Source: Candidatus Pacearchaeota archaeon (lineage in GTDB: Archaea > Nanobdellota > Nanobdellia > Pacearchaeales > GW2011-AR1). Taken from it: a DNA stretch of 35,013 nucleotides. Below are positions 55 to 29,226 of this stretch, one piece after another. The stretch covers positions 1 through 35,013 of the forward strand of contig JACPHA010000004.1 in assembly GCA_016188825.1 (NCBI GenBank). Reading direction: 5' to 3'. The notes under the pieces are model-generated. The model ran no database searches, was not told the origin of the DNA, and was given only the letters and a program-made list of their open reading frames with translations. The number at the start of each line of letters is the position of its first letter. Position 1 is the stretch's first letter. Made by a program: the position numbers and the translations under genes.

Positions 55-245
55 CAGGTTATTATGTAGAGGACTTTGAATAACCCCTGTTTCTTTGCTT
101 TTTTCAAAGTCCTTCTTAGAGGGTTTTGAAAGTTTTTAGGGCTTTTCAAAACCTTCTATAGATAATTCTTTTGATTGGAGTAGTTTTTGGAGAATTATCC
201 ATCACGGGAATTCTGGACAAAAATGTATCCCAATTACCGGAATTC
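55..245. repeat. Intergenic array of four palindromes (array A)
   Basis: The 309 bases before the first gene hold no convincing ORF but four consecutive inverted repeats. Arms are 70-80/103-113 (11 bp, 22-nt centre), 118-131/144-157 (14 bp with one G-T pair, 12-nt centre), 161-169/191-199 (9 bp, 21-nt centre) and 208-216/237-245 (9 bp with one G-T, 20-nt centre). Left-arm starts are 43-48 bp apart. An alternative pairing, 57-63 with 79-85, overlaps the first palindrome. Arm sequences differ from unit to unit, so this is neither a tandem repeat nor a CRISPR array. The array lies beyond the 3' end of the minus-strand flavoprotein gene. Function unknown. Confidence 0.75.
114..161 (+). repeat. 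48-bp dispersed hairpin repeat, copy 1
   Basis: This unit contains the second palindrome of array A. It is repeated at 29183-29230 in the same orientation with a single difference (C142 versus T29211), which lies at the edge of the 12-nt centre and leaves both arms intact. The match stops at both ends of the palindrome, so the palindrome itself is the repeated unit. Confidence 0.85.
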
Positions 246-309
246 ACGATAATTCATGTCATGATAATTTGCAATATCCTCACTATTTAAAGTTGGCAAA
301 AATCTCCAA

Positions 310-8603: not shown

Positions 8604-9308
8604 ATGCGACATGCAAAAAAATTAAACCTTAGAGAACTATTCCTAAAAAATTTTGTAAAATCCTTGATTTTAAATTCCGCTCCTGCAACCCCAGAAACCA
8701 TAAGAGGAGAAGTGCTCCAAGAATCTCCTTTTGTAATAACTTCAGAAACAATTAAACAACAAACCGAAAAGCAAAAAATTCAAGTTCAAAAACAGCCTTT
8801 TCAAATTTCGCTTCAAAAACAGTTCTTGCAGCCAATCCAACCTCCAAAATTCGCGCAAGCAAAGCCACCAGTCCGCCTTTCTCCGCAGATGCAATACCTG
8901 CCTTCTGCAAGTCCTGGCAGAAAACAGCCATCAATATCAGCAACTCAAACACAAGCGCCTCCGCCATGGCTCAAACCTCTTTATCCGACTAACATTCCCA
9001 TTGAAAAAGCAGATTTAGGAAAAATAACTTCGCTCCTTTCAGATCCTGCCGTTATAGGAATAGAATGCCCCGGCCCAGGAAAAAACATTATAGTAAACAA
9101 GTCAGGTTCTATTCAAGCCACCCCAATCAACTTAACAAAAGAAGAAATTGATAGTATAATGAATGAAATTTCAGAAAAAACAAGAATTCCCTTGCTCATA
9201 GGGTTGTTCAAAGCCGCGCTCGGTGATATTTTAATAACTGCTGTCGTTTCTGAATACGTTGGAACAAGATTCATGATACAAAAAATCACGCCCTTTACGC
9301 AGATGTAA
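8604..9308 (+). CDS. Protein with secretion-ATPase-like N-terminal domain
   Basis: A 234-residue protein. Residues about 1-130 are Gln/Pro-rich and likely disordered. Residues about 140-230 form a compact domain reading IGIECPGPGKNIIVNKSG, then LTKEEIDSIMNEIS and KTRIPL. This resembles the small N-terminal domain preceding the ATPase core of archaeal type IV pilus/CpaF-like secretion ATPases. There is no Walker A or B, and no room for an ATPase core. It may bind or regulate such a machine, or be a stand-alone use of the domain. The resemblance is by eye only. Confidence 0.55.
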   Translation: MRHAKKLNLRELFLKNFVKSLILNSAPATPETIRGEVLQESPFVITSETIKQQTEKQKIQVQKQPFQISLQKQFLQPIQPPKFAQAKPPVRLSPQMQYLPSASPGRKQPSISATQTQAPPPWLKPLYPTNIPIEKADLGKITSLLSDPAVIGIECPGPGKNIIVNKSGSIQATPINLTKEEIDSIMNEISEKTRIPLLIGLFKAALGDILITAVVSEYVGTRFMIQKITPFTQM

Positions 9309-9443
9309 TGTATAATAAAAAATGATGTGCAGGACACAGGCATTTGTCACCACCTAAATACCATAAAGCATAATCAATTATTATCTGACGAAGATTTTAT
9401 AACAAGACTTACTACGGATTTGTAAACAGGTTTTTCTCAGTAT

Positions 9444-9528
9444 GGACAATTCGTTTGATTATATCACTTTTTTGCGAATTGTCCTATTAGAGAATTCGGA
9501 ACAAATTTATAATTCAATTATCCGAATT
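9444..9528. repeat. Intergenic palindromes (array B)
   Basis: The 393-bp gap between 9308 and 9702 has no gene. It holds GGACAATTCG at 9444-9453 paired with 9475-9484 (10 bp, 21-nt centre) and AATTCGGA at 9493-9500 paired with 9521-9528 (8 bp, 20-nt centre). Left arms are 49 bp apart, the same geometry as in arrays A and C. I see nothing else in the gap beyond AT-rich sequence. Confidence 0.65.
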
Positions 9529-9701
9529 ATCTATAATACGACACATAGCGTAGTTTCTATTATTTAATGTAGTTAAAGTTGTATTTGATAAAATGGTTTG
9601 TTATTGCGCCCTAAATAACTTTTACTGGTATCATAAGTCACTAGCTTACACAAATTTCAAAAATTAAAAAACTTCTTAAACTTCTCTTTCTTTAATAATC
9701 A

Positions 9702-26958: not shown

Positions 26959-27337
26959 TTTATCAAAAAATAAGCTTTTTTTAGTTAAAAGGTGATAAAT
27001 CTTGTTATGTCAAGAATTTAATTGTCAGAATTCTTGGTGTCCAAAAGTCCAAACACACACAAGGACTTTTTGATGTTGTCAATCAATCGACAGAATTTGT
27101 TAATTATGGACTAGCTAAAAAGAATGATTATTGGGATTGTAATTATAGTCTAGGACATTAATAATTTCTGTTTTGTCATAGACTATCAAGGGAAAGTCAT
27201 GCAATTTGTTCAATTATTTATGACTTTCACTATAATTAGCATTTATGGACAATTGCATTACTTATGTGACATTTATTTGCAATTGTACAGACAGAGAATT
27301 GCAAAAAAAATGAGACATATCCTATGCAATTCTCTGT
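26959..27337. repeat. Largest intergenic palindrome array (array C)
   Basis: The 521-bp gap between divergent genes has no ORF but a run of palindromes: 26959-26965/26993-26999 (7 bp), 27011-27018/27029-27036 (8 bp, 10-nt centre), 27043-27050/27063-27070 (8 bp, 12-nt centre), 27145-27157/27174-27186 (12 pairs, one mismatch, 16-nt centre), 27192-27200/27220-27228 (9 bp, 19-nt centre), 27249-27257/27278-27286 (9 bp, 20-nt centre) and 27291-27303/27325-27337 (13 bp perfect, 21-nt centre). The last four start 42-57 bp apart. The right arm of the sixth can also pair with the left arm of the seventh (TGCAATT with AATTGCA). Stems and centres are otherwise unrelated in sequence. Confidence 0.85.
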
Positions 27338-27370
27338 ATATACGATAAAATAACTGTATTTGTAATTCTA

Positions 27371-27393
27371 TCATCCGCGGGTTTAACGGAACC
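27371..27393 (+). mobile_element. Possible decayed IS-end sequence
   Basis: TCATCCGCGGG matches the start of the solo end at 5109-5119, but the second half of the hairpin is not preserved. It could be a degraded copy or chance. Confidence 0.2.
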
Positions 27394-27405
27394 AAAAATA
27401 ACTAA

Positions 27406-28968: not shown

Positions 28969-29226
28969 AGACAATTTGCAAAAGAGTAACATAATCAAGC
29001 AAATTGTCTATTTAAAACCTCCCCGAATTCTCCTATGATAATTCTAAAATCCCATCTGCTCAATTTTTAAGGTCATTAACTACACTAAACCCTAAATAAT
29101 GCTTCTTAATTAGTTACAAATCTTTTATGTAGCCACTAATATATTAAGAATTAATAATTATGAATTGGTGTAATTAACTATATCTTAGAGGGTTTTGAAA
29201 GTTTTTAGGGTTTTTCAAAACCTTCT
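28969..29226. repeat. Intergenic palindromes (array D)
   Basis: The 300-bp gap between convergent genes holds a perfect 11-bp palindrome, 28969-28979/28999-29009 (19-nt centre), six bases after the peptidase stop codon. It also holds 29103-29114 with 29135-29150 (12 pairs with a 4-nt bulge, 20-nt centre), a weak one at 29151-29177, and the 40-bp unit at 29187-29226 shared with array A. The first could act as a terminator. The rest lie too far away. Confidence 0.65.

Follow-up and report, generated by a model that had tools for sequence, protein, structure and literature searches.

The 2011 study of Haloquadratum walsbyi described transposase-free repeats of several kinds (MITEs, PATEs, and SMRs), with elements inside elements and with the enzymes missing (PMC3119063). 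Its "SwitchRepeats" are sites where a given element occurs in either orientation (PMC3119063). The Correia/NEMIS, ERIC, and RUP elements are shorter than 200 bp and AT-rich, have terminal inverted repeats with TA at both termini, duplicate their target, fold into stem-loops, and are mostly intergenic (PMC2229807). Rickettsia palindromic elements lie in frame inside genes (PMC2229807, PMC10969869), and archaeal repeats fused into genes are cited in a review (PMC2229807). No earlier report of mobile repeats of such kind in DPANN archaea was found in the literature searched.

The window analyzed here, 35,013 nucleotides of contig JACPHA010000004.1 (assembly GCA_016188825.1), comes from a Pacearchaeota archaeon, as judged by the nearest named relative, with a genome of roughly 1 Mb. 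One gap between two divergent open reading frames holds a row of palindromes (Table 1). We are confident that this row consists of four tiny transposase-less mobile elements: H as host, with EF, D, and C inserted in it, each of these three built as a hairpin pair.

Table 1. Features of the palindrome-rich gap, its flanking genes, and related elements in the window.
Feature	Position	Strand	Remarks
Flanking ORF, 184 aa	26360..26914	-	No Pfam match; diverges from gap
Left 8-bp target duplication of H	26966..26973		AAAAATAA; identical to 27394-27401
Element H, MITE-like	26974..27393	+	Inverted ends GCTTTTTTTAGTTAA.../GGTTCCGTTAAACC...
Element EF, 66 bp	27009..27074	+	GTCAAG...CTTTTTGAT; hairpins 27011-27036, 27043-27070; R3 model match
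Inverted repeat	27011-27036		Arm 8, center 10
Inverted repeat	27043-27070		Arm 8, center 12
Element D, TA...TA	27144..27234	+	Hairpins 27145-27186, 27192-27228; covariance model R1, 98.6 bits
Inverted repeat	27145-27186		Arm 8, center 26
Inverted repeat	27192-27228		Arm 9, center 19
Element C, TA...TA, 95 bp	27244..27338	+	Hairpins 27249-27286, 27291-27337
Inverted repeat	27249-27286		Arm 9, center 20
Inverted repeat	27291-27337		Arm 13, center 21
Right 8-bp target duplication of H	27394..27401		AAAAATAA; identical to 26966-26973
Flanking ORF, 508 aa	27436..28962	+	No Pfam match
TA...TA double-hairpin element (C/D class)	157..251	+	Model R1, 45.9 bits
TA...TA double-hairpin element (C/D class)	9441..9535	+	Models R2, 62.3 bits, and R1, 44.2 bits

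Palindromes beyond chance

Positions 26959–27337 (379 bp) contain six perfect inverted repeats whose arms measure 8–13 bp. The criteria were perfect arms of at least 8 bp and a center of 8–26 nt; by these, 1000 dinucleotide shuffles yielded a mean of 0.32 repeats and a maximum of 3. No shuffle reached six, and none produced a 13-bp arm. The earlier note had judged the run to be far above chance, and this is confirmed, as is its spacing of 42–57 bp for the last four units, which start 47, 57, and 42 bp apart. Its count of seven is good for six. The other candidate, TTTATCA/TGATAAA at 26959–26999, is weak (arm 7, center 27) and straddles the H boundary with its left arm outside the element; it is therefore attributed to chance. 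The right end had been missed as well, and the feature extends over 26966–27401.

Searched against its own genome at the DNA level, the gap gives pieces scattered over many contigs: about 14 matches at 93–99% identity for positions 27243–27342, and three for 26969–27121. Side-by-side comparison of the matching places separates four units, the outer H and EF, D, and C with two hairpins each. These three also occur singly, in dozens of unrelated places in the source genome and in some sister species. The palindromes had been called unrelated in sequence, which holds for the arms within the gap; each hairpin pair, however, is a sequence-conserved dispersed repeat. The regular spacing and center sizes follow from a stereotyped element plan, in which C and D are each about 91–95 bp long and carry two hairpins.

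The outer element

H has a core of about 172 bp and reaches 420 bp with its three inserts. Other copies, on contigs C20, C18, C8, and C19 of the source genome, carry different inserts. The copy at locus L017 holds D and lacks EF and C, and that at L016 holds EF and lacks D and C. The L018 copy holds EF and also C, which occupies the position within H that it has in the window but points the other way. A further copy, L026, has lost its left end and lacks D and C. The target duplication differs from copy to copy (CGTTTTTG at L018, CTGCAAGAA at L016); it is exact over 8 bp in the window, L018, and L016, and covers seven bases at L017.

The ends of H match those of an IS6-like transposon, L074, in the sister genome G008, which has the target duplication GCTTAAGT; compared by eye, 22 of the first 26 bases of the L074 ends agree with the consensus right end of H. 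The 282-aa L074 transposase scores 99.9 bits against NF033587 (IS6/IS240), below the NCBIfam cut-off of 125, and 56.9 bits against PF13610. Because it shares matching inverted ends and 8-bp duplications with L074, the marks of an IS6-derived MITE, H is read as an IS6-like miniature element.

TA-flanked double hairpins

C and D belong to a larger class with about 64 places in the source genome, mostly 91–95 bp long; D has about 31 places there and is also frequent in genomes G006 and G009, and C itself has the 14 or so close copies plus divergent ones. Matches of the D, C, and EF models together occupy about 96 places in 1.0 Mb, or 0.8% of the genome. Covariance models recovered 107 elements of the C/D class; TA stands at both ends of 98 of them, and the flanks are otherwise AT-rich and unfixed. 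The terminal inverted repeats are TATGGA(C/G)AATT with AATTCTCTGTA, which is imperfect, and TATAGT with ACTATA. Long ORFs are mostly avoided: 90 of 100 copies in this class are located outside them.

Empty sites were identified by removing an element plus one TA and comparing the result with an empty relative. Six such comparisons for C and one for D display the TA duplication. The C of L023 is missing from L024 and vice versa, so that the comparison is reciprocal. Two H copies, L016 and L026, are empty where the window has its C, and L016 is also empty at the site of the inverted C of L018. In G009, the C at L065 interrupts a D-like element, and the G006 counterpart of that element (L044) has no insert there. 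The window D has its empty site in H copy L026 (positions 8640–8790). C and D show these marks of miniature inverted-repeat elements: they are shorter than 500 bp, non-coding, multi-copy, and bounded by terminal inverted repeats and a target duplication with empty sites. Ends matching a known autonomous transposon, a further mark of MITEs, were found for neither among IS630, IS4/5-like, and Y1 elements.

The window contains two further elements of the C/D class (Table 1). Another hairpin repeat has copies near both window ends, at 122–153 and 29191–29222, with GGTTTTGAAA arms and a center of 12; similar sequences occur at L151, L149, and L067. Just 3' of the 508-aa ORF, a perfect 11-bp inverted repeat, AGACAATTTGC, with a center of 19 (28969–29009), looks like a single-hairpin relative.

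Element EF and its in-frame relatives

EF has at least 13 near-identical copies in the source genome, with different flanks; most have TTAT directly before them, and all end in an invariant TTGAT on the right. The window copy has its empty site in H copy L017. Since AT lies on both sides, the product of a 2-bp duplication (AT) looks the same as that of a Y1-style insertion free of duplication. A nine-base duplication was considered and is compatible with the copy in the Nre gene only. The end hairpins of resident IS605-type (Y1) transposons differ from the EF palindromes.

GAT-type EF copies in G009 and G001 lie in frame within ORFs, as inserts of 87 or 90 nt with no stop codon, in both orientations. 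The genes are those for LeuRS (L066), Nre (L069), and two unnamed ORFs; the Nre of G002 and G004 is free of an EF-type insert. These relatives exhibit in-frame insertion into conserved genes, as the Rickettsia elements do. The G009 LeuRS carries an extra segment of about 185 aa (L066:1772–2327), which holds EF and another hairpin in frame, and the LeuRS open frame of the source genome is longer still, at 1105 aa (G000:C17:7735–8207, L218). In G006, arrays of at least three hairpins with TCAAGAA arms are joined by the short linkers GCGCATC and GCATC (L048:1650–2150, L046:1450–1950). These arrays are often at contig ends, as near-identical multi-copy repeats that break the assembly.

Paired arms and alternative readings

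The earlier note had proposed that symmetry is kept while sequence diverges, and the arms bear this out: they differ yet stay complementary across 27 sequence groups, obtained by sorting the two-hairpin copies below 75% identity. In these groups, stems scoring at least 8 are present in 81% (left) and 81% (right), versus 4% and 2% in shuffles. Compensatory arm changes also were found. Across 13 D-class sequences 91.8% of cells pair, with 9 pairs changed on both sides versus 5.0 in shuffles, and in the C class 94.9% pair, with 7 versus 2.3; the covariance-model collection favors structure-keeping copies, so all these percentages, those for the 27 groups included, are upper values. Sliding the alignment lowers the paired fraction to about 25–52%. 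The diversity of the paired arm sequences is not explained by collection bias.

Such changes need not reflect selection on a recognized structure. Template-switch correction is a mutational process that perfects palindromes without selection, and this known process could yield matching arm changes in quasi-palindromes. Nevertheless, both hairpins are paired in nearly all families and length stays mostly near 92–95 bp, and we consider this source of the covariation improbable. Maintained symmetry could also mark a functional site assembled from repeats; the candidates named in the earlier note were dyads that bind protein on a single face of the DNA, several RNA hairpins, and an origin or segregation site. 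The gap is the densest spot among the hits of three models in the source genome, with three elements within 340 bp. However, clustering there is not above rough chance (8 close pairs, versus a mean of 8.1 under a rough intergenic-insertion null), and targeted insertion of the elements into one another was discarded on the same figures. Moreover, the hairpin pairs are separate elements, each found alone elsewhere; H copies hold different subsets, so that D, C, and EF can each be missing from H at other places; and C takes opposite orientations at the same H site. The 508-aa ORF has a 49% identical ortholog in JAGVXA010000002.1 (the G005 match), and at this one ortholog the upstream gap is 86 bp long and free of hairpins. 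An Rfam scan of the window returned tRNA only, with zero matches in the gap. A single functional device here thus is very improbable. A TATA-like TTTATAAAA lies just upstream of the 508-aa ORF, outside H. Three exclusions made earlier stand: the row is not CRISPR, since in place of identical repeats there are arms that vary, with loops kept constant inside each family; it is not an integron attC array, with no cassette ORF of 80 aa between hairpins and with dispersed single copies; and it is not a simple terminator.

The other contender concerns the enzyme. A Y1 (IS200/IS605-like) transposase might move C, D, and EF as folded single strands, as for PATEs, which would entail near-terminal hairpins, no true target duplication, and a short motif (TA, TTAT) 5' of the insertion point. 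Two hairpins per element would serve as left and right ends, EF has a conserved left TTAT in most source-genome copies and its fixed TTGAT at the right, Y1 genes are present in the source genome, and PATEs are common in Haloquadratum (PMC3119063). Yet C and D have terminal inverted repeats with exact TA on both sides, and the element-rich G006 and G009 show one partial Y1 match each. The hairpins at resident IS200 ends are short and small-looped, unlike those of C, D, and EF, and the Y1 transposase was rejected as hairpin source. Where D adjoins a Y1 gene in G006, the whole D element has inserted in the IS200 5' region. The Y1 route seems unlikely to us. Within the window, an IS200/IS605-like gene for a Y1 transposase, on the minus strand at 2612–2958, is broken by an internal TGA.

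Other candidate enzymes were sought. A search for DDE_3, the IS630-type domain, in 15 genomes, among them the ten sampled members of the genus, found none, and DDE_Tnp_1 (IS4/IS5-type) is absent from G000, the source genome, and G006. No autonomous partner for C, D, and EF was found in these draft genomes by a search covering IS630, IS4/5-like, and Y1 enzymes.

Distribution and a model for assembly

With both strands counted, the D model matches 40 times in the source genome, 30 in G006, 46 in G009, 4 in G031, and 2 in G001, with zero matches in the other 34 genomes. Among the same relatives, the C model matches in the source genome and G009 only, and the EF model in the source genome, G001, G006, and G009, with weak matches in G024 and G027. 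At the same threshold, C/D elements are absent from most of 39 relatives. The four D-class copies in G031 (L091, L096, L101, L105) belong to another family of the same order. They are missing from the genomes sampled between, and horizontal transfer is possible. Viral spread was considered; three patterns had no exact matches in viral contigs.

The nested row is best accounted for as follows: the IS6-family-like H inserted between two divergent genes, duplicating 8 bp. EF then entered H beside a TTAT-like motif, and D and C at TA dinucleotides, duplicating TA. With no gene of their own, the elements presumably depend on transposases acting in trans. Most likely, the mobilizing enzyme recognizes the hairpin pair as its handle, which would explain why the arms stay complementary even as they diverge in sequence; the array probably has no host function.

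In a genome of about 1 Mb, some hundred tiny mobile hairpins are thus present with no recognized engine, and some of their relatives add in-frame length to essential proteins. Should a single enzyme mobilize every one of the covarying families, it would recognize DNA shape, and the families are a ready test set. A caution also follows: where palindromes cluster in an intergenic gap of a DPANN genome, they may be mobile elements nested in one another, not regulatory sites.

Comparison with known repeats

H resembles the IS6 family in its L074-like ends and 8-bp duplication. It differs in lacking a transposase, and the L074 enzyme itself falls below the NCBIfam IS6 cut-off. EF-type copies in G009 and G001 share the in-frame position of the Rickettsia elements, but EF is archaeal, 66–90 bp long, and unrelated in sequence, and the window copy is intergenic.

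C and D share with the Correia/NEMIS, ERIC, and RUP elements (PMC2229807) all the features listed at the outset. In contrast to the long stem-loops described there, they form two tandem hairpins, fall into 27 groups with covarying arms, and have no IS630-type partner that we could find. The H. walsbyi repeats (PMC3119063) likewise are archaeal, about 50–500 bp long, non-coding, multi-copy, and frequently nested, with a functional transposase missing for some families and with opposite orientations at one site. There, however, PATEs lack terminal inverted repeats and duplications, and SMRs lack duplications; C and D unite a hairpin at each end, as in PATEs, with the terminal inverted repeats and TA duplication of MITEs.

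Speculatively, and with more doubt than conviction, C, D, and their relatives might form a distinct archaeal class of mobile repeats, in which a single unrecognized enzyme reads hairpin shape and not a fixed end sequence, so that dozens of families with self-complementary arms share one mobilizer and EF-type relatives add in-frame peptides to essential genes. Unusual features are the uniform two-hairpin plan, the covarying arms, and the fact that none of the transposase families tested supplied a partner for C, D, or EF. Three points are new relative to known repeats: a two-hairpin plan joined to TA duplication, the large number of covarying families, and, as far as the literature searched shows, the presence of such elements in DPANN archaea.
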